A DNA stretch of 11,493 nucleotides from JBFJWU01 sp041623475 [NCBI: bacterium] (GTDB taxonomy: Bacteria; J088): assembly GCA_041623475.1 (NCBI GenBank), contig JBFJWU010000076.1, positions 1-11,493 on the forward strand. The letters are read 5' to 3'. Under the pieces are notes generated by a model that was not told where the DNA came from, ran no database searches, and saw only the letters and a list, made by a program, of their open reading frames with translations. Below are positions 670-11,493 of the stretch, one piece after another. Each line of letters starts with the position of its first letter. The stretch's first letter is position 1. Both the position numbers and the translations under genes were made by a program.

Positions 670-1386
670 GTGACATTCAGTTTCTGCGATGCGGCGCATC
701 TTGTGCCTCCGACGATCGAGTTTTGTGAACGCCGACTTTGTCAGTTCCCCGCAGAGCCGGCAAACGCGTGGTCCAACCTGGCCTACGTGTTGTTCGGGCT
801 GCTTATCTTGCGCCTGGCAAAACGTGAACAACGCTGGAACCTGTGGCCTGCTGGCGTAACCGCAATACTGATCGGATTCTGCAGTTTTTCGTTTCACGCA
901 TATCCGGTCTTCCTGACTGAATTCGTGGATCTGTTCAGCATGTACCTGCTGAGCATCTACATGCTGGCTGTCCAACTGTACCGTGCTCTTGGGTGGGGAA
1001 TACGCAATTCGGTCGCAGCATATTTCCTGCTGCTGACGTGCAGCACAATGGTTCTTTGGTGGGCGAGGGAACCCGGCATTACTATTTTTTCAATTCAGAT
1101 CGTCGGCGCACTGGCCCTTGAAGCCTGGATCGCAAGCAGGCAACGGGACAATCCGACGGAGTACCGATATTTCTTTGTCCTGATCGGTTTTTTCGCCCTT
1201 TCTCTGGGATTCTGGCTGCTTGACCTGCACCGGATTGTCTGCATCCCCGACAACCACCTGTTGCAGGGACACGCCCTGTGGCACATAACCAATAGTACAT
1301 GCTTCTACTGGATGTATCGCTATGCCGCCCAGTTCGACTGGTCACGGGCCGCCTTCTGGGGGTCAACCTCGGGGTCGTCGTCCTGA
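670..1386 (+). CDS. Alkaline ceramidase-like integral membrane hydrolase (CREST superfamily)
   Basis: This 238-residue protein with about seven hydrophobic segments has the layout of the alkaline ceramidase family (PF05875). These enzymes use a zinc ion to hydrolyse amide bonds in lipids such as ceramide. The metal and catalytic set of human ACER3 (Ser77, His81, Asp92, His217, His221) is fully matched by Ser72, His76, Asp87, His201 and His205, with the same internal spacing (S-x3-H-x10-D and HALWH). The N-terminal part carries WSNLAY at 34-39 and an IEFCE segment near 16-20, where eukaryotic members bind calcium. The start is GTG at 670, with only a weak ribosome site. The 3' end overlaps the convergent VTT-like gene by 24 bases. 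The bacterial substrate is unknown: an N-acyl lipid such as ceramide or an ornithine-type lipid is possible. The fold assignment is strong, the substrate is inference. Confidence 0.8.
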   Translation: MTFSFCDAAHLVPPTIEFCERRLCQFPAEPANAWSNLAYVLFGLLILRLAKREQRWNLWPAGVTAILIGFCSFSFHAYPVFLTEFVDLFSMYLLSIYMLAVQLYRALGWGIRNSVAAYFLLLTCSTMVLWWAREPGITIFSIQIVGALALEAWIASRQRDNPTEYRYFFVLIGFFALSLGFWLLDLHRIVCIPDNHLLQGHALWHITNSTCFYWMYRYAAQFDWSRAAFWGSTSGSSS

Positions 1387-2016
1387 TTTTCCGGCCCCCA
1401 GCCACCGCCGTCCCTGGGTACCAATCACCAGGATGATGCAGACAATCGTCAGCGGCAGGACATATCGTCGTGCAAACGTGATCAGGATCGTAACCTGGTC
1501 CGCGAGCGCGGCACCGGCGAAATAAAAGAGCGAAATCCAGGTCAAATGGCCGGCGATCGTAATTGCCAGAAAAACCGGAAAACGCATGCGAACCTTTGCG
1601 GCCAGCGTACAAACCAGGCTCGCGGGAACAAAGTACAGAATGACAAAGCCGTAGCGAACGAAAACCGATTCGACCGTGCTGATCAACTCGTCGAATTCAG
1701 GGGATCGTTTCTTGGCCCAGTCCAGTATTTCGTCAGCATACTCCTGTCCAAGCCCGAAGAAGATGACCGAACTGAACAATCGTCTGGCAAGGGCTATACC
1801 GAATATCACGGACGCTGGCGCCAGTGGTACAAGCAATACGATATTGCGACCATTCGGATTCATTGCCAGCATCAGGCGCGGGGCTTCAGTAAGTAGCGTT
1901 GGCAGCAGTGCACTGGCTGTACCAGCCACCGCAATCATCATTAACAGCATCCAGAAATAGACCGACCTGCGCAACGGTTTCTTTTTCAGGACTGGAATAA
2001 TGGCACCGGAGTTCAT
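1363..2016 (-). CDS. DedA/VTT-like multispanning membrane protein
   Basis: The 217-residue version begins at ATG 2016. An in-frame TTG at 2049 would add 11 residues but has no ribosome site. Hydrophobic segments lie near residues 18-40, 56-86, 117-138, 142-168 and 185-205, and the protein ends in a basic tail (GRRWLGAGKSGRRPRG). The stretch from about 115 to 170, a YGFVILYFVPASL segment followed by an amphipathic part and AGHLTWISLFYFAG, resembles the re-entrant helix and glycine-rich helix of VTT (SNARE-associated/DedA) proteins, which include phospholipid scramblases and flippases. The usual DedA F-x-R-x-x-P arginine is not seen, so this is a divergent member or a look-alike. It converges on the ceramidase-like gene with a 24-base tail overlap. 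Confidence 0.55.
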   Translation of the reverse strand: MNSGAIIPVLKKKPLRRSVYFWMLLMMIAVAGTASALLPTLLTEAPRLMLAMNPNGRNIVLLVPLAPASVIFGIALARRLFSSVIFFGLGQEYADEILDWAKKRSPEFDELISTVESVFVRYGFVILYFVPASLVCTLAAKVRMRFPVFLAITIAGHLTWISLFYFAGAALADQVTILITFARRYVLPLTIVCIILVIGTQGRRWLGAGKSGRRPRG

Positions 2017-2160
2017 GCGGGATATGGTCTCACAACCGCCCACAGGCAATCATTATTCACTGAGCGATCAGAAATACCGATGCCGGCCGCCCTGTTCGCA
2101 CCGCCCAGATAAGCGTCCAAATTACCCACCAACGCCAAATTTATCGATAGGCAACCCTGT

Positions 2161-2189
2161 TTGCATAATCCTGAAACGTTCTTTATAAT
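2161..2189 (+). promoter_or_regulatory. Promoter of the BLUF operon
   Basis: TATAAT at 2184-2189 is a perfect -10 box. TTGCAT at 2161-2166 is a weak -35 at the ideal 17-base spacing. Transcription would start near 2196 and give a short leader to the GTG at 2222. The weak -35 and flanking palindromes suggest a controlled promoter. Confidence 0.5.
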
Positions 2190-2203
2190 GTTTTTGAACG
2201 TTT
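2174..2203. promoter_or_regulatory. Paired AACGTT operator flanking the -10 box of the BLUF operon
   Basis: AAACGTTC (2174-2181) and GAACGTTT (2196-2203) form a perfect inverted repeat with a 14-base spacer that contains the -10 box. Each arm also contains the six-base palindrome AACGTT, and the two centres are 22 bases apart, about two helical turns, so both would face the same side of the DNA. A dimeric or tetrameric repressor binding here would block RNA polymerase directly. The regulator is not in the window and cannot be named. Confidence 0.5.
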
Positions 2204-2221
2204 TAATAAAGGAGCAAGAAC

Positions 2222-2698
2222 GTGGAACTTACTCAACTTGTATATGTCAGTGTGCGCAAGTCAACGTGCACCGAATATGACATCAACGCAATCCTGCGGT
2301 CATCCCAGAAGAATAACGCCGGTCTGGATATTACAGGGGTCCTGCTTTACTCGGACACCCATTTTTTTCAATATCTCGAGGGCGACAAGGGAATCATCAC
2401 CGATCTGTATGAGCGAATCAAGGATGACGATCGTCATAGCAACGTCGTGCTGATTACCCGAACGCCAATCACGTCGCGCACGTTCCCCAGTTGGCAGATG
2501 GCTGGCAAACGCTACGAACAGAACAGTATCGAGTTCCAGACCGCACTTTCACCGAACGAGCGCGCGTTGTTCCGAAGCATGCTGGACGGTGATTCGAGCA
2601 ACGGTGATCGCGCACTGGGATTGATGAAGAAACTGTTTAAGACAAAAACGAAAGGAGGCCAGCGCAATGAACGAAGAACTGCAACGGCGCTTGGCTGA
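2222..2698 (+). CDS. BLUF-domain blue-light photoreceptor
   Basis: This 158-residue protein starts with GTG at 2222 behind GGAG (2211-2214). Residues 1-95 are a BLUF domain, which binds FAD and shifts its hydrogen-bond network under blue light. The key residues fall at the same numbers as in cyanobacterial PixD (Slr1694): Tyr8 (LVYVS), Asn32 (KNNAGLDITGVLLY), Gln50 (FFQYLEGD), Trp91 and Met93 (SWQMAG). The chromophore site therefore looks intact. Residues 100-145 form the usual C-terminal cap helices, and the last 15 or so are basic and probably disordered. No catalytic output domain is present, so it would signal by protein-protein contact, as PixD and PapB do. The gene heads a five-gene cluster, and its last 32 bases overlap the next gene, a possible partner. 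Confidence 0.92.
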   Translation: MELTQLVYVSVRKSTCTEYDINAILRSSQKNNAGLDITGVLLYSDTHFFQYLEGDKGIITDLYERIKDDDRHSNVVLITRTPITSRTFPSWQMAGKRYEQNSIEFQTALSPNERALFRSMLDGDSSNGDRALGLMKKLFKTKTKGGQRNERRTATALG

Positions 2699-2888
2699 TA
2701 TCCGGGCCATCGAATTTGGCGACGACACTGTCGAAATCGCCTCAACGCTGAACCTGGTCCTGACATTTTATGAGGCGGATGACGAGCCGGAAATCATTGG
2801 CGCATGTAAAGCCAAACTGGAAGAAGGTGTCGCTCGACTTGAGGTACTGGGTCAAAACGAACTGGCACAGGAATACGCCGTCAATTAG
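2667..2888 (+). CDS. 73-residue acidic helical protein of unknown function
   Basis: ATG at 2667 follows a very strong ribosome site (AAAGGAGG, 2651-2658) embedded in the BLUF coding region, and the gene overlaps the BLUF 3' end by 32 bases in another frame. The protein is acidic and predicted mainly helical: a first helix near residues 1-14, an ISTLNLVL-like amphipathic helix near 22-34, and a third from about 42 to 68 (EIIGACKAKLEEGVARLEVLG). It has no signal peptide, membrane span or metal motif, and a single Cys at 46. I do not recognise the family. Tight coupling to a BLUF protein with no output domain makes a downstream binding partner a reasonable guess. A small ferritin or transporter accessory is the alternative. 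Confidence 0.8.
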   Translation: MNEELQRRLADIRAIEFGDDTVEIASTLNLVLTFYEADDEPEIIGACKAKLEEGVARLEVLGQNELAQEYAVN

Positions 2889-2920
2889 TTGGGGCAATAC
2901 ACCACAGAAAGGAATAGAAC

Positions 2921-3346
2921 GTGGACAAAGAAACAATGATCGCAAACTTGAACAATGATCTGGCCGGAGAGCTCGGGGCCATTATTCAGTACATCACGTA
3001 CGCGGCCCGAACGACGGGGCCATACCGCCCGCAACTGTCCGAATTCTTCCTGGCAGAAGTCAGCGACGAGCAGAAGCACGCTGAATTCCTTGCCAAAAAG
3101 ATTGTTGCTCTCGGCGGGACGCCGACAACCGTGCCTCGCCCCGTGCCTGAGTCCCGGTCAAATCGAGACATGCTGGAAGCAGTCGCCGAGGCAGAAGCAC
3201 GCGCGGTGTCTGACTATTCTGAACGAGCCCGACAGGCGGAAGCGTTTGGTGACAAAGGGCTGGCCGTAGAATTGGAAGATATGGTCCGTGACGAATCGGG
3301 GCACCTTGAAGAAACGCAGCGCATTCTCAAGGACTGGCCGTCATGA
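2921..3346 (+). CDS. Ferritin-like di-iron protein
   Basis: This 141-residue protein starts with GTG at 2921 after AAAGGAA and has the four-helix ferritin-like layout. Helix A carries Glu17 (GELGAIIQY). Helix B has E50-x-x-H53 (DEQKHAE). Helix C carries an acidic patch at Glu90/Glu92, and helix D has E125-x-x-H128 (DESGHLEE). Two ExxH motifs plus the helix A and C glutamates are the standard carboxylate/His di-iron set. Such proteins oxidise and store iron or consume peroxide. The length is at the short end, close to bacterioferritin cores and Dps-related proteins. No heme-ligand Met was identified. The stop overlaps the next gene's start (ATGA at 3343-3346), indicating translational coupling. 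Whether it forms a 24-mer shell or a dimer cannot be told. Confidence 0.8.
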   Translation: MDKETMIANLNNDLAGELGAIIQYITYAARTTGPYRPQLSEFFLAEVSDEQKHAEFLAKKIVALGGTPTTVPRPVPESRSNRDMLEAVAEAEARAVSDYSERARQAEAFGDKGLAVELEDMVRDESGHLEETQRILKDWPS

Positions 3347-4344
3347 AACTTAACACCGTGAAACCTCGAAATACCGACTGGCGCAACGTTTATGAACTGC
3401 GCCCTGTCGTTCTGATATCTGCGTGCCTGGCGCAGGTGCCGGTTCGCTTTAGCGGTGACACCGCATCCAACAAGCACGTCAAACGCATACTCCCGGGTGT
3501 TGACCTGGTCCCTGTTTGCCCTGAAATGTCCATCGGACTTGGAACGCCACGCCCGACGCTGCGACTGGTCAAGCACGCCGACGATATTCGCCTGATACAA
3601 CCGGACGGCCAGGTCGACCGTACGGATGCAATGCACGCGTTTTCAAACTCAGTGGTTGCAGGCTTCGACGTTGACGGCATCCTCCTCAAAGCCTACTCAC
3701 CGACGTGTGGACCAAGGGGTGTAAAAGTATACAACGAGGCGGGAACAGGCCTGCACCCGGTCACAACAGCTGGCGTTTTTGCGAAATTATTGCTGCAGGC
3801 CCAACCAGACGTAGCAACCGAAGACGAAGGCAGATTGAATGATGCCAGCCTTCGCCAGGCATTCCTGATTCGGATCTACGCTTCGGCACGCTGGCGGGCA
3901 TTCCGTGAAACAGCGAAACGGCTGGCGGACTTACAGGAATTCCACGCGGCAAACAAGATTCTCTACTACGCCTTTCACCCTGACGTACTGCGGGAAATGG
4001 GTGACATAGCGGCTGGCCACGGTAGTTGCAATCTGGACAGTTGTCTGGAGGATTATGCAGCAGCATATTTCCGCCTGCTTGCCAGCATGCCAACCCGCGG
4101 GCGCTGGGTAAATGCCCTGCAACACGCGTCGGGATTTGTATCCCGATCAATTACACCCGCGCAGCGGCAGCAGGTCAGCCAGACGATATCCGCGTTCGCA
4201 GATGCGCTGGTTCCCCTGTCTGTTCCGGTTTTTCAACTGCGTGCCCTGGCCGAAGCCAATTGCTCGGGGTATTTGTCGAAACAGACGTTCTGGGAGCCCT
4301 GGCCGCTGGCGCTGGCCCAACCCGACTCATCTGTGGCAACATAG
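3343..4344 (+). CDS. TudS-type thiouracil desulfidase (DUF523) fused to DUF1722
   Basis: Residues 20-160 match DUF523. Its three conserved cysteines are present as Cys28 (ISACLAQVPVRFSG), Cys59 (VPVCPEMSIGLGTPR) and Cys122 (SPTCGPRG). In TudS enzymes these hold a catalytic [4Fe-4S] cluster that removes sulfur from 4-thiouracil or 4-thio-UMP, which arise from tRNA thiouridine. Residues 185-310 match DUF1722 (FHAANKILYYAFH, then MGDIAA), the domain of E. coli YbgA, which lies next to the photolyase gene phr. The same fusion is linked with light-induced gene sets in other proteobacteria, as I recall. Here no photolyase follows, and the next gene is a metal transporter. Translation is coupled to the ferritin-like gene through ATGA. 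The domain call is firm. Desulfidase activity of the fusion is inferred from the family. Confidence 0.88.
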   Translation: MKLNTVKPRNTDWRNVYELRPVVLISACLAQVPVRFSGDTASNKHVKRILPGVDLVPVCPEMSIGLGTPRPTLRLVKHADDIRLIQPDGQVDRTDAMHAFSNSVVAGFDVDGILLKAYSPTCGPRGVKVYNEAGTGLHPVTTAGVFAKLLLQAQPDVATEDEGRLNDASLRQAFLIRIYASARWRAFRETAKRLADLQEFHAANKILYYAFHPDVLREMGDIAAGHGSCNLDSCLEDYAAAYFRLLASMPTRGRWVNALQHASGFVSRSITPAQRQQVSQTISAFADALVPLSVPVFQLRALAEANCSGYLSKQTFWEPWPLALAQPDSSVAT

Positions 4345-4379
4345 GCAACCGGCACGCCCAGGCGTCGCCTTGCCGGCTA

Positions 4380-4405
4380 CGACGGACCTGAATAATTGTC
4401 CGTCG
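4380..4405 (+). repeat. Perfect 8-bp hairpin between desulfidase and transporter genes
   Basis: CGACGGAC (4380-4387) and GTCCGTCG (4398-4405) pair perfectly around a ten-base AT-rich loop. No T-run follows, so it is not a standard intrinsic terminator. It could be an operator, an RNA processing or stability element, or an attenuator that lowers expression of the transporter relative to upstream genes. Confidence 0.5.
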
Positions 4406-4425
4406 CAGCGAATTGAGTGTATTGT
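4396..4425 (+). promoter_or_regulatory. Weak candidate internal promoter before the transporter gene
   Basis: TTGTCC (4396-4401) and TATTGT (4420-4425) are each four of six matches to sigma70 boxes, with 18 bases spacing. The -35 lies within the hairpin arm, so a protein bound to the palindrome could control it. Evidence is slight. Confidence 0.2.
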
Positions 4426-4463
4426 GTTCGGATAGAGGCGAACATCGTCAGGCGGCACAGCTT

Positions 4464-5210
4464 ATGTCATCGGTACCGGCCGAACACAGCCATGATCCCA
4501 ACGCAATTTCAACCAGACTGGACCAACTGAACGAGGCCCCATACATCGACGACGCGGTGCTCGGCGCGATTGACGGCAGCGTTACAACAGTGGCTATTGT
4601 TGCTGGTGCGCTCGGGGCACAATTGTCCGGCCTGACCGTACTCATCCTGGGTGTGGCCAACTTGCTGGCCGATGGGGTCAGCATGGCGGTCGGTAATTAT
4701 CAACGCGCGCGCAGCGATGAAAAGCACCACGCGTCAGTCAGGCGTATCGAAGAATCCCATATCGACCATCACCCCCAAGGCGAACGGGAAGAAATCCGTC
4801 AGATCTACGCCCGCAAGGGCTTTCAGCCACCGTTGCTGGACGACATCGTTGACACGATTACACAGGACCGCGATCGTTGGGTCCAGACCATGTTGCAGGA
4901 AGAATGGGGCCTGGCAATGTCCAGCCAGAGCCCGGTCCGGGTCGGCATTGTCACATTCGTGTCATTTGTCGCTGCGGGTGCAATCCCGCTTTTGCCGTTT
5001 CTGTGGCAGGCATCCGGAGAATCGCCCGTCGGTGTCGGTGCCAGTGCGGCTCTGGCGGGTGCAACGTTTGTCGCTATTGGCGTATTGCGGGCCCGTATTT
5101 TTGGCGAGAACGTCTTGTTGGGCGGACTGGGCACACTGGGGACCGGTGGGGGCGCAGCATTTCTTGCCTATGCGGTCGCGTGGGGCCTGGCCACGGCTTA
5201 CGGCATTTAG
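4464..5210 (+). CDS. VIT1/CCC1-family metal (iron/manganese) transporter
   Basis: This 248-residue protein starts at ATG 4464, behind a weak AGGCGG. A TTG at 4413 in the same frame would add 17 poorly hydrophobic residues and has no ribosome site. TM1 (about 30-52) carries the family signature AVLGAIDGSV with Asp37, equivalent to the translocation Asp43 of eucalyptus VIT1. TM2 (56-80) ends in SMAVGNYQRARSDEKH with Met74. A cytoplasmic Glu/Asp-rich hinge (about 85-150, including EESHIDHH and QEEWGL) corresponds to the metal-binding domain, and TM3-TM5 fill 157-246. The family exports Fe2+ or Mn2+ from the cytosol by proton antiport. Its position beside a ferritin-like gene recalls MbfA, in which both parts are one polypeptide. 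It converges on a lipoprotein gene with a six-base gap and no clear terminator. Confidence 0.88.
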   Translation: MSSVPAEHSHDPNAISTRLDQLNEAPYIDDAVLGAIDGSVTTVAIVAGALGAQLSGLTVLILGVANLLADGVSMAVGNYQRARSDEKHHASVRRIEESHIDHHPQGEREEIRQIYARKGFQPPLLDDIVDTITQDRDRWVQTMLQEEWGLAMSSQSPVRVGIVTFVSFVAAGAIPLLPFLWQASGESPVGVGASAALAGATFVAIGVLRARIFGENVLLGGLGTLGTGGGAAFLAYAVAWGLATAYGI

Positions 5211-5216
5211 CCAGAC

Positions 5217-5681
5217 TTATTCGACGACAAATGCCGCGTTATTCGGCCACAGGTCATAGGGAGCAATACACGCAAATGTTCGCTCTCGGAAGTGGTCAAG
5301 CAGGGAACTGCTGGCAATATCAACCGCGACCTTGCCTTCCTTCCGGCAGTGCGATGTCGACAGGCTCGCTGCGTCCTGCTCGTTTTTGAGGTCACTATGG
5401 TAGCGGACCGAGATCGAATCCGGTGTAGCGGCATAGACCCAGATCGGCCGAACACACAGGTACGACGAGTCTTGCTGTCCACCGGGCCGCCCGGATCGGG
5501 TTTCCAGCACAGACTGCAGATCTGATCGCCCGCAGATTCGCGATGCACGGCGATCTGCATCCGAGTTCGTGTAATAGTCGTGCCTCAGGGTCAACATCGG
5601 TGACGAGTTGTAGATCACTTGTATACCTGGGGCACAAGAAGCGACCCCCAGCAGCAAAAGTAAGATTAGAATCCGGTTCAC
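5217..5681 (-). CDS. Small cysteine-containing lipoprotein, unknown function
   Basis: This 154-residue protein starts with GTG at 5681. Residues 1-16 are a short lipoprotein signal peptide (Met-Asn-Arg, then an Ile/Leu-rich core) ending in the lipobox VASC, with lipidation predicted at Cys16. The residue after Cys is Ala, which favours outer-membrane sorting under the Lol rule. The mature part holds four further cysteines (50, 76, 112, 138), enough for two disulfides in the periplasm. I recognise no domain. The ribosome site is weak. The gene is convergent with the transporter gene and shares an upstream AT-rich region with the recombinase gene on the other strand. Confidence 0.65.
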   Translation of the reverse strand: MNRILILLLLLGVASCAPGIQVIYNSSPMLTLRHDYYTNSDADRRASRICGRSDLQSVLETRSGRPGGQQDSSYLCVRPIWVYAATPDSISVRYHSDLKNEQDAASLSTSHCRKEGKVAVDIASSSLLDHFRERTFACIAPYDLWPNNAAFVVE

Positions 5682-5733
5682 GGTGGCGGTAGACCCCGGC
5701 TTGTGACGGCACCAGGGTGCCTGCCATTTTTGT

Positions 5734-5762
5734 TTGTCAATAAATTACTGGTTTTATATAAA
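5734..5762 (+). promoter_or_regulatory. Near-consensus sigma70 promoter upstream of the recombinase
   Basis: TTGTCA (5734-5739) and TATAAA (5757-5762), each five of six matches to consensus, are separated by exactly 17 bases in a locally AT-rich stretch. Transcription would begin near 5769 and leave a leader of about 100 bases before the ATG at 5870. Confidence 0.6.
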
Positions 5763-5869
5763 AGTAGCAAATTTGGTATACATGAATCGGCATTGAGGTT
5801 GTTTGAAGAACACGGGACTACGCAACATTGGCCGGAAGAAAGCACAGAAAAACAAAACGAGTTTCGCCA

Positions 5870-6427
5870 ATGCGGCCCTATGCCTTGGTCCGTGAACGCG
5901 AATTCTTGATGCCGGATGAGGTCAAACGACTTGCATCCAGCGCGCGCGATGCCGGTCGGTTTGGGCTTCGCAACAGCCTTCTGATCCGCCTGGCCTACCA
6001 TCACGGGATGCGAGTACAAGAGCTAATTGACCTCGAATGGCGTGACATCGACCTGGACAATCAGGTGCTTTGCCTTCGGCACCGGCGCACCACCGGACGG
6101 TCCCATCCGATCGCGTCTGGTCTGCTCACAGACCTGGAAGCTCTGCGTGATACCAGCGCCGCGACACCAGTCTTGCTTAGCGCTCGCCGCAGCAGATTGT
6201 CCGACCGCACCGTCCATTTTGTCGTTCGGCAGGCCGGCCAACTGGCGGGCATCGGGTTCTCGGTTCACCCATATATGCTCAGGCATTCCTGTGGTCGACG
6301 ATTGGCAGAACGAGGCGTTCCCGCAGAAGCAATACAGCAATACCTTGGACTCAATAATCTGGCCAATACGCAGCGATACCTGAATGACAACAATTGCGAC
6401 CCAGGAGACCTCACCGAATTGCTATAG
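5870..6427 (+). CDS. Short FimB/FimE-type tyrosine recombinase with altered active site
   Basis: The 185-residue version starts at ATG 5870. An in-frame TTG at 5828 would add a basic 14-residue extension. Like FimB/FimE it consists almost only of the catalytic domain, without the N-terminal core-binding domain of phage integrases. Box I Arg48 (HGMRVQELIDLEWRDIDL) is present. Box II reads HPYMLRHSCG, so Arg138 is kept but the HxxR His is Tyr135. The second His of the LGH motif is Leu161 (QQYLGLNN), nine residues before the nucleophile Tyr170 (NTQRY). The beta-hairpin Lys seems to be Arg in the HRRTTGRSH segment. Reported variants tolerate other residues at the first His, but Leu at the second is unusual. 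It may be a slow, domesticated or DNA-binding-only recombinase. No inverted repeats of fim-switch type were found nearby. The AT-rich upstream region hints at horizontal origin. Confidence 0.8.
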   Translation: MRPYALVREREFLMPDEVKRLASSARDAGRFGLRNSLLIRLAYHHGMRVQELIDLEWRDIDLDNQVLCLRHRRTTGRSHPIASGLLTDLEALRDTSAATPVLLSARRSRLSDRTVHFVVRQAGQLAGIGFSVHPYMLRHSCGRRLAERGVPAEAIQQYLGLNNLANTQRYLNDNNCDPGDLTELL

Positions 6428-6535: not shown

Positions 6536-7318
6536 ATGCCGCCGTATTTGCAAGATCTCCCTGCGGCGCCAAACGCAAGTGAACAACCAGTGAAGAAAGT
6601 CTTGATTTCCGCACCGTTTGATGATCCGTCAACCGAACTTGTGCGAACATTGGACCAGTCCAACTACCACCCGATCGTTCGGGACAACTTGACCGAGTTG
6701 CTCGAACTGCTTTCCGAAGCAACACCGGCAGTGCTGGTCGCCGATGTCAGTTTTGCCGAAATTGAGCTTCGCGACTTGCTGGATGGAATCGAGCGAATCA
6801 CACCAACCTGCCAGGTCGTCGTTTATTCCGGCGATGAGTTTAAAGACCTGGAACGTGGCTCACGTACATTTAACGCGAGGATTGCAAGGATCAAGGCGGC
6901 TGTCGACAGCGTTTCAGCCGATCTCACCACTGTGGCAGTTGTCCCGGCGAACACGACGAACTGCATTCTGCTGGTCGACGACGATACTGACCAGCACAGC
7001 CTGATCGAGTCCCTGATGTGTGACGAAAATACGGACGTTGTTGCAACCGAATCAACAATGGTTGCCAGTTTGATCCGCAAGCATAAACCGGCAGTGATCC
7101 TTTTGGACGTCGGCCTTCCAGGGGTCCGGCAGGGCACCGACATCGCCCGATTCCTGAAAGAATCAGGGCTCGCGGAAGATGCGCCGGTCGTTCTGTATTC
7201 AGGACGATCCGATGAAGAACTCGCAACGCTCGCCGCGTCGTGCGGCGCCGACGGCTACATTACCAAGGCCAGGCCACCAGCAGAGCTAAAGGTCCGGATT
7301 CGTTCCTGGATCAAATAG
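6536..7318 (+). CDS. Tandem receiver protein: truncated receiver plus full receiver, no output domain
   Basis: In this 260-residue cytoplasmic protein, residues 142-258 are a complete response-regulator receiver: acidic cluster Asp148-150 (LLVDDD), phospho-acceptor Asp191 (VILLDVGLPG), switch Ser222 (VVLYSGRS) and Lys244 (YITKAR). Residues 20-105 read as a second, incomplete receiver, with strand KVLISAPFDD, a possible acceptor Asp70 (VLVADVSF) and VVVYSGDEF with Ser98. The final strand carrying the Lys is missing, and a helical linker (about 105-130) follows. No DNA-binding, GGDEF, EAL, HD or kinase domain is present, so it probably acts as a phosphate relay or by contact. The start is ATG 6536 without a ribosome site, and GTG at 6590 is an alternative. 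No histidine kinase is encoded nearby. Confidence 0.8.
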   Translation: MPPYLQDLPAAPNASEQPVKKVLISAPFDDPSTELVRTLDQSNYHPIVRDNLTELLELLSEATPAVLVADVSFAEIELRDLLDGIERITPTCQVVVYSGDEFKDLERGSRTFNARIARIKAAVDSVSADLTTVAVVPANTTNCILLVDDDTDQHSLIESLMCDENTDVVATESTMVASLIRKHKPAVILLDVGLPGVRQGTDIARFLKESGLAEDAPVVLYSGRSDEELATLAASCGADGYITKARPPAELKVRIRSWIK

Positions 7319-7699: not shown

Positions 7700-9217
7700 C
7701 TAACGCCGTGGCCGGAAAATGGCGTCTCCGAACGTGCCTGGATATCCGCCCCACGACACAGCCCGCCCGGAGGAAGCTGATAGATTACGGCGCTGCAATA
7801 CCCAAGACGGGGACTCACCCAAAACTGCCTTTGCCCGGCTGGACGCCACGATCATTTCCAGAAGCCCGTCGCCATCCAGGTCGGTAATCAGCGGGGCCGC
7901 TTGCAGCGTCCCGGGCAGGTCCGGTAACTGGATAGAATCCATAGTGGTCGGATCCAGTACCCGCGCGACATCCAGTAATTGGAACTCGTTGGCGGGCTGC
8001 AGATATGACCGCAAGGTCAGTCCATAAATGATCTCGTCATCCCGGTCACTGTCCAGATTAACGGCCATTGGCGCGTACCACGTGTATCGCTCGTTCTGGA
8101 CCAGTTCCCACCGCACTTCGCCCGTGCTGCCGTCAATCAGCAATTGACGTGAGCCGTTGAACCGGTCGCCAGCGCGGGTCGGGAAATTTCCCGTCAAATA
8201 CGACACAAAAACGTCGGGCACATTATCGCCATCGAAATAGCCGATGGCAGGAGTCACATAGGCACTGCTTTTCGTAACCGGATCCACCTGCCACAATATT
8301 CCACCGGTCGCACCGTCGATCGCAATGGTCCTTGCGTCGTGCGGCACCGCGACGACATCGCGAACGCCATCCAGGTTCAGGTCCACGACAGACGGTACGC
8401 CGATGACCCCCTTGCTGGTGACTGACGTGACCAGAAGCGACCAGTTTTCCGGCGTACCGGCGACCAGTTCGTCCAGCGGCAACTCCCACAGGCCACCTGC
8501 CAGTGTTTCCCCCCCGGTGCCAACCAGGACATATTGGGGTCCGTCGTCCTGTTTGCGGTAAACCACGGGCGACATATATGTTTCGGCCGCGTCCGGTGTC
8601 CGGACCAGCGACAAGATTTGACCGGTCGCCCCACTCAGGACCAGGACATGCCCCGGGGGGCGTGGTGACTGGTATGGCTGGGCGGTGAACATCCCGCCGT
8701 TAGCAGCAACAAGTTCATCGATTCCATCGCCGTCGACATCCTCGATCACCTGCGATGTGTAGAAGTTGAAAAAAAGGACATCTTCCCGCTGCCCGGGATC
8801 AAAGGACCAAAGCAACGTCCCGTCGGCGCCGGACAATGCCACCAGTTCCTTGTCTCGTCCGCCAATCACGATATCGGGCACACGGTCCGAATCGATATAA
8901 AGGACGGACGCCGATCCCACCATCTGGTGGACGGTCGGATAGGTCCAGATCAGCGTACCGTCGCGTCCGTCGACAGCCGCGACCTCGCCCCCGATCTCTG
9001 CATCGAAACTGCCAAACTCGGACCCCCACGCGGTGATGATGTCCTTGACACCATCGCGATTGACATCGACAGCCCGTGGCGAGGAAAACAACGTTGCCTC
9101 ACCTTCGATGGCCCAGCGGATGCCGAACGTGGGCGGATATTCCGTGTTCCGTTCACAGGCAACCAACCCCAGCAAAAAAAGTACAGTAAAGGTTATGAAA
9201 TGCTGTCTAATCACCAT
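7700..9217 (-). CDS. Lipoprotein beta-propeller with hybrid FG-GAP / PQQ-type repeats
   Basis: The 505-residue form starts at ATG 9217 behind GAGG, with GTG 9214 as the next codon. Residues 1-21 are a lipoprotein signal peptide with lipobox GLVAC (Cys21, then Glu). The mature protein repeats a calcium-loop motif of the DxDxDG type about every 55 residues: near 51, 108, 160, 279, 328, 388 and 446. An eighth, degenerate unit sits around 221 (RKQDDGPQYVLVG). Between these lie PQQ-enzyme-like motifs such as VDGRDGTLIWTYP, LSGADGTLLWSFDP and IDGATGGILWQVDP. Eight units suggest an eight-bladed propeller anchored to a membrane. The role is probably binding or scaffolding; catalysis by a quinone is not supported by any seen residue. 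It is divergent from the protease gene and their first codons overlap. Confidence 0.82.
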   Translation of the reverse strand: MVIRQHFITFTVLFLLGLVACERNTEYPPTFGIRWAIEGEATLFSSPRAVDVNRDGVKDIITAWGSEFGSFDAEIGGEVAAVDGRDGTLIWTYPTVHQMVGSASVLYIDSDRVPDIVIGGRDKELVALSGADGTLLWSFDPGQREDVLFFNFYTSQVIEDVDGDGIDELVAANGGMFTAQPYQSPRPPGHVLVLSGATGQILSLVRTPDAAETYMSPVVYRKQDDGPQYVLVGTGGETLAGGLWELPLDELVAGTPENWSLLVTSVTSKGVIGVPSVVDLNLDGVRDVVAVPHDARTIAIDGATGGILWQVDPVTKSSAYVTPAIGYFDGDNVPDVFVSYLTGNFPTRAGDRFNGSRQLLIDGSTGEVRWELVQNERYTWYAPMAVNLDSDRDDEIIYGLTLRSYLQPANEFQLLDVARVLDPTTMDSIQLPDLPGTLQAAPLITDLDGDGLLEMIVASSRAKAVLGESPSWVLQRRNLSASSGRAVSWGGYPGTFGDAIFRPRR

Positions 9218-10469
9218 AATGCCCGGCCTCGCGTTGTTGGCAGGTTGCCAGTTCGGGGACACAGAAAGCCTGACAACATCGCCAGCCCTGACCCTGCCCG
9301 GTATCGAATGTCCTGTTGTCTACGATTCTGCCGCAACGACGGAATCCGATCCAGATCAATGTACATTTTTTTCATCGGTCGGGTCGTTTGCAATATCCCA
9401 GTCTGGCCGCAGCGCCACAGCAACTATATCATGGCCGCCGCAGGCTGAATCCCTTTGGCTGCGGATTACGGCAGAAGCTGAAACGGCAGACGACATCTGC
9501 CTGCAACTGGAATCTGTTGAAACGTCGGACGGCCGTGTCTGGGTACCGACGGCAGCGGGACAATCGAACGCTGGACCGCATTGCGCCGATTGCATCCAAC
9601 GCGTCGGCGTCGGACGGAACCAGGTACTGTTTGGATTCCCTAATTCCGGTTCTGACAGTGATGACGCTGCGCCGGAAAGCCTGTCGCTGCAGGTAGCCGC
9701 CAGGGACTGCGGGACGTTTCTACCGGCCTGGGTGTCTGCTGACACACCGCGCCCGGACCACGTATTGATTGAAGCGGCCTTTGTCAGCGCCAGACCGGCA
9801 GCGCAACCGATGGTACTGCCGCTGGCCCTGGTTTTTGCCGGAAACGGGCAGTTCGCCATCCAGGACCTGGACACCGGTATTCTGGGCCAGGCGTTTGATA
9901 TTGCGTCAGATCACATTTCCGAAGCGACTCAATTGCGCATCGTAACCGCTGTGACAGCCGCCCTGCCTGGCGACTGGCAGCAGTCAGTAGATGTGTCCGA
10001 CCGGAATTTCGCTGCACTGGACGCAATGTACCGCGCGGCTGTTGCGCCGATTTCCGATATCGTCGGCAGCGGCAAGGCGGTCCCGTTGATCCTTGCCCCC
10101 TGCCTGAGAATCGAAAATACTGGCAATGGACAGATTCGCGAGCCGGATGGGTGGACATCCCACGTGCCGGCCTGGATGTTCGCACAGGACTCTTTTGACG
10201 GGATCTACATCCGCAATGGTAGTTGTACGACAGGCCAATCGTACTGGCTGGGTCCGGATGCCCTCGGCAAAGTCATAGCTCATGAAATCGGTCACGCGCT
10301 GGGGCTCTTCCATTCCGTCGAAGCAGATGGGTCAACCGATCACATTGCCGATACGCACGGCGACAACCTGATGAACAGTAACGTTCTGGCAGCTGGCAGT
10401 ACCGGCCTGACACCCCGGCAGATTGCCGTGGCCAGGCGACATCCTGCATTGCGATGGGCACGCCAGTGA
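9195..10469 (+). CDS. Metzincin-type zinc metalloprotease, lipoprotein
   Basis: This 424-residue protein is read from ATG 9195. Residues 1-18 form a signal peptide ending in lipobox LLAGC (Cys18), which is why I reject the longer upstream frame. The zinc motif H363-E364-x2-H367-x2-G370-x2-H373 (HEIGHALGLFH) is followed 20 residues later by Met393 in a DNLMNS segment, the expected Met-turn. Together these place it among metzincins (M10/M43-like peptidases). The catalytic region occupies about 320-420. Residues 20-310 are a Cys-containing beta-rich region without a recognised domain, possibly a prodomain or substrate-binding part. The protein would act in the periplasm or at the outer surface. 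The ribosome site (AAAGG) is unusually close to the ATG. The 3' end overlaps the VCBS gene, suggesting an operon. Confidence 0.82.
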   Translation: MKCCLITIMPGLALLAGCQFGDTESLTTSPALTLPGIECPVVYDSAATTESDPDQCTFFSSVGSFAISQSGRSATATISWPPQAESLWLRITAEAETADDICLQLESVETSDGRVWVPTAAGQSNAGPHCADCIQRVGVGRNQVLFGFPNSGSDSDDAAPESLSLQVAARDCGTFLPAWVSADTPRPDHVLIEAAFVSARPAAQPMVLPLALVFAGNGQFAIQDLDTGILGQAFDIASDHISEATQLRIVTAVTAALPGDWQQSVDVSDRNFAALDAMYRAAVAPISDIVGSGKAVPLILAPCLRIENTGNGQIREPDGWTSHVPAWMFAQDSFDGIYIRNGSCTTGQSYWLGPDALGKVIAHEIGHALGLFHSVEADGSTDHIADTHGDNLMNSNVLAAGSTGLTPRQIAVARRHPALRWARQ

Positions 10470-11493
10470 TCCGGGCAGTTGCGATCACGGCCGCATTCCT
10501 GGCATTGGTTCCTGGCTGCACGGACGGCGCCATTATCCAGTTTGTCGAGTTGACTGGGCAGCCATTGTCAGGACTGGCTTATCAGCGAACTCCGTCGCTC
10601 TCCCACCAGCTAATTGTTGACTCAATTGCCGGCGGCATCACCGAACGGACCGAGGCCGGCCTGCCGGTTCATTCGCGGGGCGCCCCGGGGGCCGCCATCG
10701 TCGATGTCAATAACGACGGCTGGAACGATATTTATGTGACCAATGGACCGGATGCCGCCAACGCCCTGTTCATCAACCTGGGACAACACGGTGGGATTCT
10801 GCGGTTCCGTGATGAATCCGTCGAACGGGGAGCTGATCTGTCTGACATGGATTCGACCGGGACCTGTGTTGGAGACCTGGATAACGACGGGGACCAGGAT
10901 CTTGTTGTTGTCGGAATGGATGTCGCAGTATTGGAAAATGACGGTGGCGGGATGTTCAAAGACCGGCGACCGATACTGACCCCCGCCCAGTCAGGCGGCA
11001 CTGCTGCAACGTGCTCGCTGGGAGATGTCGACGGCGATGGAGTCCTGGATGTTGCGATTGGCAATACCTTTGACTGGTCCCGCAGCAATGCCCTGAACAC
11101 AGTCGGCACCGCATTGAACCAGCACAACCTGCTGTTGTTCGGGGACGGCGCATTCGGATTTTCAGAGCGCTCGGAGGACTGGGGATTACGGGATTTTCCG
11201 GCTATCACCTGGGCATTGGCTCTGGTTGACATTGACCAGGACGGCGACGTTGACCTGCTTACCGCCGACGACCAGGCCGCAGTGCCGGGATCGATCGTTG
11301 AGCGCGGCGGCATACAAGTCTACCTGAATAATGACACCCACTTTGAAAAACGCGCCCCCGACCAGTCAGCTCTGGGCTCGCCAACCGCATGGATGGGCCT
11401 GTCTTTTGGCGATCTGGACAATGACGGTTTCCTGGACCTTTTTGGCACGAACATGGGCCTGTATTTTGTCACCAGCAACCGCGTCGGCGGACA
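10454..11493 (+). CDS. VCBS/FG-GAP repeat lipoprotein, CRTAC1-like (runs off right edge)
   Basis: The frame is open from ATG 10454 to the edge (346 residues seen, no stop). GTG at 10466 is an equally good start because it gives a GTGA overlap with the protease stop. A short signal peptide ends at Cys22 (LVPGC), a plausible though imperfect lipobox. Calcium-binding repeats follow: DVNNDGWND near 84, DLDNDGDQD near 141, DVDGDGVLD near 191, DIDQDGDVD near 259 and DLDNDGFLD near 320. The intervening pattern (NALFINLG, then RFRDES, then GTCVGDLDNDGDQDL) is that of CRTAC1/ASPIC-UnbV proteins, secreted calcium-loaded propellers usually ending in an ASPIC domain. That end lies beyond the window. Likely role: extracellular binding or adhesion, together with the overlapping protease. 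Confidence 0.8.
   Translation, partial: MGTPVIRAVAITAAFLALVPGCTDGAIIQFVELTGQPLSGLAYQRTPSLSHQLIVDSIAGGITERTEAGLPVHSRGAPGAAIVDVNNDGWNDIYVTNGPDAANALFINLGQHGGILRFRDESVERGADLSDMDSTGTCVGDLDNDGDQDLVVVGMDVAVLENDGGGMFKDRRPILTPAQSGGTAATCSLGDVDGDGVLDVAIGNTFDWSRSNALNTVGTALNQHNLLLFGDGAFGFSERSEDWGLRDFPAITWALALVDIDQDGDVDLLTADDQAAVPGSIVERGGIQVYLNNDTHFEKRAPDQSALGSPTAWMGLSFGDLDNDGFLDLFGTNMGLYFVTSNRVGG

Follow-up and report, generated by a model that had tools for sequence, protein, structure and literature searches.

Gene cluster

The DNA considered here, referred to as the window, is a stretch of 11,493 nucleotides from the bacterium JBFJWU01 sp041623475 (assembly GCA_041623475.1, contig JBFJWU010000076.1). 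At positions 2222-5210 the list of its open reading frames (ORFs) and a Pfam search display a row of five genes, all on the plus strand, which specify a short BLUF photoreceptor, a small helical protein (ORF2), a ferritin-like protein, a fusion of the TudS and DUF1722 domains of the kind named RudS, and a VIT1/CCC1-family metal transporter (Table 1). The juxtaposition of a BLUF gene with rudS, encountered again in an order of other bacteria, is the main subject of this report.

The five co-directional genes had been recognized in a preliminary description of this DNA, as had the intact BLUF, ferritin-like, TudS-DUF1722 and VIT1 identities, and these are borne out by the ORF coordinates, the Pfam matches and the conserved residues. 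Its statement that three of the four junctions within 2222-4344 are overlaps or short gaps needs correction: the junctions there are indeed tight but number three, and that between the RudS and VIT1 genes is the loose one. Purine-rich stretches resembling Shine-Dalgarno sequences precede the BLUF, ORF2 and ferritin-like genes. Judged from the sequence, the five genes form a tightly packed probable operon, to which VIT1 may be less firmly attached.

Table 1. Coordinates of the genes, junctions and candidate regulatory features in and around the cluster
Feature	Position or extent	Strand	Basis
Short BLUF photoreceptor, 158 amino acids (aa)	2222-2698	+	PF04940, E=1.6e-30
BLUF/ORF2 junction	32-base overlap	+	from coordinates
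ORF2, 73-aa helical protein, no known family	2667-2888	+	AlphaFold2 model; sub-threshold Pfam match, E=0.084
ORF2/ferritin-like junction	32-base gap	+	from coordinates
Ferritin-like (mini-ferritin) protein, 141 aa	2921-3346	+	PF00210, E=2.2e-23
Ferritin-like/RudS junction	4-base overlap	+	from coordinates
RudS-type protein, TudS [4Fe-4S] desulfidase domain + DUF1722, 333 aa	3343-4344	+	PF04463, 2.1e-29; PF08349, 9.9e-22
RudS/VIT1 junction	119-base gap; 68 if the VIT1 start is the TTG at 4413	+	from coordinates
VIT1/CCC1-family metal transporter, 248 aa	4464-5210	+	PF01988, E=5.1e-54
Sigma-70-like promoter candidate, TTTGCA-18 nt-TATAAT	2160-2189	+	10/12 consensus positions
Perfect 8-bp inverted repeat, AAACGTTC-14 nt-GAACGTTT, operator candidate	2174-2203		surrounds TATAAT at 2184-2189
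Inverted repeat, 12-nt arms, 92% complementary	4376-4409	+	lies in the RudS/VIT1 gap
VTT-like gene	1363-2049	-	below Pfam cut-off
Small lipoprotein-like ORF	5217-5681	-	ORF list

RudS-type protein

RudS is defined in PMC11417400 by the fusion of a TudS (DUF523) domain to DUF1722, and because the window protein has this make-up (PF04463 at residues 23-162 and PF08349 at 205-321, both above cut-off) we file it as RudS-type. As described there, RudS removes 4-thiouridine from transfer RNA (tRNA) in a [4Fe-4S]-dependent reaction, and its overexpression in E. coli lessened the growth delay caused by ultraviolet A (UVA). The same source reports that rudS is often part of a light-responsive operon, together with genes for photolyase or for carotenoids, and describes control by LitR in Pseudomonas.

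The cysteines of the cluster are kept in the window protein, C28, C59 and C122 corresponding to Cys17, Cys49 and Cys114 of Pseudomonas putida RudS, and so are the catalytic residues E61, R70 and S119, which correspond to Glu51, Arg60 and Ser111 (PMC11417400); the cysteine positions were matched by motif through Pseudomonas relatives and not on the KT2440 protein itself. Six of the seven residues whose change is reported to have abolished the activity of the P. putida enzyme (PMC11417400) are therefore present. The preliminary description had the protein recycle thiolated bases. This has to be given up, since DUF523-DUF1722 is the make-up of RudS, an eraser of 4-thiouridine in tRNA (PMC11417400), and the window fusion is probably, as predicted from its sequence, such an eraser and not a recycler of free bases.

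BLUF protein and ORF2

The BLUF domain scores 105.5 bits against a curated Pfam cut-off of 25, and family searches found no second domain in this protein. Its closest solved relative is 2byc, a BLUF-family blue-light receptor. Residues Y8, N31, N32, Q50, W91 and M93, which we take to be flavin-pocket positions, are all kept. The importance of the Tyr, Gln and Trp (Y7/Q51/W92) is described for BlsA (PMC6695109). The photoreceptor is intact and looks functional, flavin binding and a photocycle being predicted.

Searches of Pfam, NCBIfam and PHROGs assign ORF2 to no family above cut-off, and it has no homolog among the comparison loci searched. Modeled by AlphaFold2 from its own sequence, it forms four helices, with a predicted local distance difference test score (pLDDT) of 94.1 for the best of five models and 66.9 for the worst. 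Because a confident four-helix fold is predicted, ORF2 is probably a real protein; a chance ORF was rejected on the strength of this fold and of the Shine-Dalgarno-like stretch before it. Kinship to its structural matches was also rejected (best Foldseek E=0.5; VIA Z up to 9.8, to designed helical repeats), these lying within the background that helical models give anyway. ORF2 is a possible partner of the BLUF protein.

BLUF genes beside rudS or thiI in another order

A gene-neighborhood survey, of the kind suggested in the preliminary description, did not recover the exact gene set elsewhere, and it did reveal BLUF genes within 2.5 kb of RudS in at least four genomes and behind thiI in two. 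It covered 398 Pseudomonadota genomes, 117 of them with BLUF. A DUF1722 match was present in 34 of 116 BLUF genomes (25/80 and 9/36), and the 117th, G147, has a RudS that is unlinked to BLUF. Two matches were rejected as RudS: that of G488 belongs to a pyrimidine-dimer glycosylase-DUF1722 protein beside a separate TudS, and that of G463, a short match with a separate TudS alongside, was set aside by analogy. With these removed, 33 genomes hold both BLUF and RudS, and in at least four (G473, G623, G602 and G445) BLUF and a full RudS lie no more than 2.5 kb apart; this is a lower bound, weaker BLUF places such as that of G519 not having been located.

The locus of G473 (L184, 6114-12815) reads MerR, a small gene, photolyase, RudS, an unknown gene, lipocalin, BLUF-PsiE and ferrochelatase, with RudS, the unknown gene, lipocalin and BLUF overlapping by four bases each. 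That of G623 (L183, 5421-12123) has a similar row with overlaps of a few bases, and in both ferrochelatase lies directly downstream of BLUF. In G602 (L181) the order is MerR, photolyase, RudS, an unknown gene, lipocalin and BLUF, the frame of the last breaking near the contig end, while G445 (L182) has glutathione peroxidase, a BLUF gene lacking PsiE, photolyase and RudS. BLUF, RudS and photolyase form a tightly packed row in three of the four linked genomes. As a side observation, RudS has a lipocalin gene and a stand-alone TudS gene next to it in three other loci of the order to which these genomes belong (L269, L270 and L274), whose genomes lack a BLUF match.

ThiI is found in the same genome as RudS in most species, and thiI is the gene of the 4-thiouridine synthetase. 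In two further genomes of this order a BLUF-PsiE gene follows thiI directly, 46 bases behind it in G463 (L185:11602-13720) and 37 bases behind it in G488 (L186:10746-13219). The latter locus has the pyrimidine-dimer glycosylase-DUF1722 protein and the separate TudS no more than 5 kb upstream and, downstream, a SelR gene (methionine sulfoxide reductase type). The six linked loci therefore show two kinds of join, BLUF to eraser (RudS) and BLUF to writer (thiI).

All six linked genomes belong to one order, in which 10 of the 78 genomes searched have BLUF; six of these ten have it no farther than 2.5 kb from RudS or thiI. In the remaining four (G457, G484, G521 and G653) it is not near either gene as far as the stretches reach, that of G653 ending at the BLUF gene. 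When the BLUF places of the 398 genomes were taken in rank order down to the 88th, only these six had a RudS or ThiI match; the other 82 have none within about 6 kb on each side, some stretches being shorter at contig ends. By a rough estimate, chance would place a given gene within 2.5 kb of another in about 0.2% of genomes of 2.4 Mb.

The window RudS is a diverged protein, at most 41% identical to any row of our trees and about 35-36% identical to the RudS proteins of this order. The trees leave out rows whose sequence had inner stops or whose match was short, and the tree of 74 rows is a chosen subset of loci from which several long-branch loci were left out. In it the window RudS falls into a set of 18 (support 99/97) with five RudS proteins of this order and 12 proteins of other lineages; its branch measures 1.77, and the five are its nearest rows by path. 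An earlier tree that lacked them had placed it beside Thermus and others.

Wider survey of RudS and VIT1 loci

For the neighborhood of RudS at large we used the best 80 of 580 confirmed GTDB relatives, at identities of 30-40%. Neighboring genes were identified with tblastn (E<=1e-4) from a small set of query proteins, which may overlook diverged ones, and several of the stretches fetched end at contig ends. Within 5 kb of RudS these 80 loci have photolyase in 36, MerR in 35, ferrochelatase in 10 and ThiI in one. The corresponding figures for 42 gammaproteobacterial RudS loci, mostly lower-scoring matches and not a random sample, are 11, 13, 6 and 1, with no BLUF, ferritin or VIT1 gene found in that distance.

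DUF1722 was detected in 97 of 369 Gammaproteobacteria; 80 of the 97 were searched for BLUF and 15 were positive. In one genome (G307) some 10.6 kb separate BLUF from RudS, and the stretch also has MerR, FAD-oxidoreductase and DUF1365 matches. VIT1 matched in 37 of 229 Gammaproteobacteria (best identity 50%), and in G210 RudS is about 23 kb from VIT1 on the same contig. RudS was found in 38 of 62 genomes of the order of G305 (<=39% identity), in none of three of the order of G163, and in 68 of 287 of the phylum of G025 (<=36%), where the top matches again came from the order of G473. A single-protein search of genome contigs with RudS gave no confirmed relative, and neither BLUF nor VIT1 had a match in viral contigs.

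Ferritin-like protein and VIT1 transporter

The closest solved relative of the ferritin-like protein is 2qqy (E=1.1e-32), with which E17, E50, H53, E92, E125 and H128 align as identical residues; by the positions of bacterioferritin we take these to be the diiron ligands. The sequence carries these ligand positions of the four-helix bundle. The Met that binds haem in bacterioferritin, presumably placed next to the Glu of the second helix, is absent from the window protein, which has Q51 beside that Glu.

The VIT1 domain scores 183.8 bits against a curated Pfam cut-off of 28.1, and residues 27-229 align with the solved VIT1 structure 6iu3 (E=3.6e-19). D37 and M74, which presumably line the metal path, are kept. 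Both proteins look functional, and iron storage and export would be their likely roles.

Outside the window, no examined locus had RudS or BLUF joined by a ferritin-like gene together with VIT1. A ferritin-like gene lies about 5.5 kb from a BLUF gene in one other locus (L233). The ferrochelatase genes near BLUF and rudS fit a wider bond between the light response and the handling of iron or porphyrin.

Candidate regulatory sequences

The sigma-70-like promoter candidate upstream of the BLUF gene is accompanied by a perfect inverted repeat over its TATAAT box. A special promoter at this place was rejected: region 2000-5800 has two promoter-like sites, and its shuffled versions have 1.7 on average. 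A dyad of this kind turned up in about 5% of cases when the 172-base region was resampled at first order (271 of 5000), and also in 6 of the 128 stretches compared elsewhere in the window. The dyad has no exact copy in 298 comparison loci. As a candidate operator it is suggestive only, and we treat both promoter and dyad as leads.

The RudS/VIT1 gap (4345-4463) folds at -46.4 kcal/mol (z=-1.84), and 11 of 200 shuffles were equally stable. The inverted repeat within it has no T run downstream, and there was no Rfam match in the window. It is a possible attenuator or processing hairpin.

Flanking genes

The annotated genes flanking the cluster are on the opposite strand at both ends. Farther upstream a Ceramidase-family membrane protein is encoded at 670-1386 (PF05875, E=1.1e-17). 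Downstream, at 5828-6427 and about 600 bases from the cluster, lies a gene for a 199-aa tyrosine-recombinase-like protein with the catalytic part of Phage_integrase and lacking the usual N-terminal domain. It is followed at 6536-7318 by a response-regulator protein with its receiver domain at residues 144-255, the N-terminal part of which has no family over cut-off. The region 7700-11493 holds an FG-GAP repeat protein (minus strand) and a metallopeptidase-like protein with HEIGHALGLFHS (plus strand). An FG-GAP-looking reading frame, judged by eye, runs off the window end at 11493. The FG-GAP protein of the window had no match at E<=1e-20 in 369 Gammaproteobacteria.

Proposed role and rival explanations

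We view the cluster as a blue-light-linked photoprotection operon, a reading that comes close to an even chance without quite reaching it. The short BLUF protein would sense blue light via its bound flavin, and since an output domain is missing, its signal probably passes through binding to another protein, which might be a regulator that acts on the dyad at the -10 box or else the helical ORF2 product. RudS would strip the sulfur from 4-thiouridine in tRNA, whereby the chromophore for the near-ultraviolet crosslink to the neighboring cytidine would be gone. The ferritin-like protein would oxidize and hold Fe2+ and VIT1 would move it out, like the halves of MbfA on separate genes, so that less Fe2+ would meet light-generated peroxide and enter Fenton chemistry. 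That light, iron and 4-thiouridine should come together in one module, as the preliminary description argued, is plausible. A bolder version, which we regard as rather unlikely on present evidence, makes BLUF the sensor of a light-controlled tRNA thiolation switch, joined in some genomes to the eraser (RudS) and in others to the writer (ThiI) of 4-thiouridine; blue light would then set the near-ultraviolet sensitivity of tRNA, and the window would add the removal of Fe2+.

In favor of the photoprotection operon are its tight junctions, the intact BLUF protein, the catalytic residues of RudS, kept but for one Ser-to-Thr change, and the published activity and light-responsive operons of RudS (PMC11417400). 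The frequent photolyase and MerR genes near RudS, the BLUF genes that recur beside RudS or thiI, the precedents of BlsA with Fur and of MbfA, and the ferrochelatase genes behind BLUF in L183 and L184 speak for it too. Several observations weigh against it. In the window RudS the catalytic Ser113 is replaced by Thr121, a conservative change shared by three other loci (L001, L004 and L005), and Asn26 by Ser, and the placing of this protein is unsure because its branch is so long. VIT1 may not share the transcript, because a 119-base gap with a hairpin precedes it. Neither the promoter nor the dyad stands out clearly from chance. The searched ORFs of the window include no photolyase or MerR gene; as far as the window reaches, 3.3 kb on the left of rudS and 7.1 kb on its right, this rudS does not stand in an operon of the LitR type, with MerR/LitR and photolyase nearby. 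In the wider survey, a ferritin-like gene lay within 5 kb of RudS in only one of the best 80 GTDB loci (L023), and BLUF and VIT1 in none of them; BLUF adjoined RudS in none of the 15 BLUF-bearing Gammaproteobacteria; and the surroundings fetched for the eight closest VIT1 homologs of Gammaproteobacteria gave no match to ferritin, RudS or BLUF. The full five-gene set was not found outside the window in the loci surveyed. Finally, the six recurring cases are not independent, since they come from one order, and in most of them BLUF is fused to PsiE, a domain absent from the window protein.

The cluster could instead serve against photo-oxidative or iron stress, the main task of BLUF being to adjust the handling of iron, in the manner of BlsA with Fur; the mini-ferritin and VIT1 would then be the core of the operon and RudS an accessory stress-time tRNA editor or an iron-sulfur passenger. 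The short BLUF protein BlsA of Acinetobacter baumannii is described as an antagonist of Fur acting on iron genes (PMC5955987), and ferritin-like plus VIT1 is the make-up of MbfA (PMC7762939). Two of the five genes handle iron, RudS carries an iron-sulfur cluster, and 2qqy is labeled 'Sigma B operon', which is a stress setting. No Fur gene was found in the window, however, and the partner that recurs beside BLUF elsewhere is RudS, photolyase or ThiI and not ferritin or VIT1; on balance we consider this explanation unlikely, though the likeliest of the rivals.

A chance or transient neighborhood, that is, packed genes of one lineage that share no light control while BLUF regulates something elsewhere, would agree with the five-gene set not having been found elsewhere in the loci surveyed, with the loose attachment of VIT1 and with the nearby recombinase-like gene. 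It is hard to square with overlaps of 32 and four bases, which are usual for co-transcribed genes, with BLUF near RudS or thiI in six of the ten BLUF-bearing genomes of another order, or with the frequent position of RudS beside photolyase and MerR genes, and we hold it to be distinctly improbable. Still less probable, to our minds, is direct control, in which the lit BLUF protein, alone or with ORF2, would bind RudS (or ThiI) as a post-translational thiolation switch, with no transcriptional control. Family searches found no DNA-binding domain in the five proteins, and BLUF is joined to RudS or to thiI in different genomes whether MerR is nearby or not, as such a switch might predict; yet well-studied short photoreceptors use transcription regulators, PmSB-LOV with PmlR2 (PMC9758184) and BlsA with Fur (PMC5955987).

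4-Thiouridine is a main near-ultraviolet target in bacterial tRNA, and to our knowledge few partners of short BLUF proteins have been described. Where a blue-light receptor shares a gene row with the presumed eraser, or immediately follows the gene of the writer, light control of tRNA modification becomes directly testable. If the photoprotection operon is real, short BLUF proteins gain a defined target, and the coupling to Fe2+ removal ties two routes of light damage to one switch. Enterobacter is reported to lower its 4-thiouridine after UVA by an unidentified mechanism (PMC11417400).

Comparison with known systems

The preliminary description knew of no system with this exact gene set. As to the set this still stands; the link between the enzyme and light, on the other hand, has already been published (PMC11417400). 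What is new here is BLUF as the partner photoreceptor of RudS, together with the iron genes. In the open-licence literature we found no report of BLUF linked with RudS, TudS or DUF1722, and none of BLUF with thiouridine or ThiI among the matches listed, which is a weak negative. Among the papers listed for BLUF, ferritin and VIT1, the two that mention BLUF also mention ferritin: PMC9758184, where it is a size standard, and PMC11904115.

In E. coli the BLUF receptor BluF is paired with a regulator under its control, BluR (PMC9758184), while no MerR gene was found in the window. BlsA resembles the proposal made here in that a short BLUF protein affects iron metabolism through protein binding; its target, however, is a global regulator, and the abstract of PMC5955987 gives no genomic link to ferritin, VIT1 or RudS. 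MbfA exporters join a ferritin-like domain to a VIT1-like domain and so have the two parts seen in the window cluster (PMC7762939). Unlike MbfA of alpha-proteobacteria, which is one fused protein, the window has two genes with rudS between them, and no single polypeptide there combines both domains.

The clusters L181-L186 differ from the window in their photolyase, lipocalin, MerR, glutathione peroxidase or ferrochelatase neighbors, and no ferritin-like or VIT1 gene was found in them; like the window, they have BLUF close to RudS, or else directly behind thiI. Compared with the photolyase/LitR rudS operons the window has BLUF as its receptor, and ferritin-like and VIT1 genes in place of photolyase and MerR. 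There is a likeness also to P. mendocina, where a short LOV blue-light receptor acts on a LitR-type regulator (class II LitR; PMC9758184). As in the light-responsive rudS operons of Pseudomonas and others (PMC11417400, PMC9758184), RudS in the window lies in a presumed light-linked operon.

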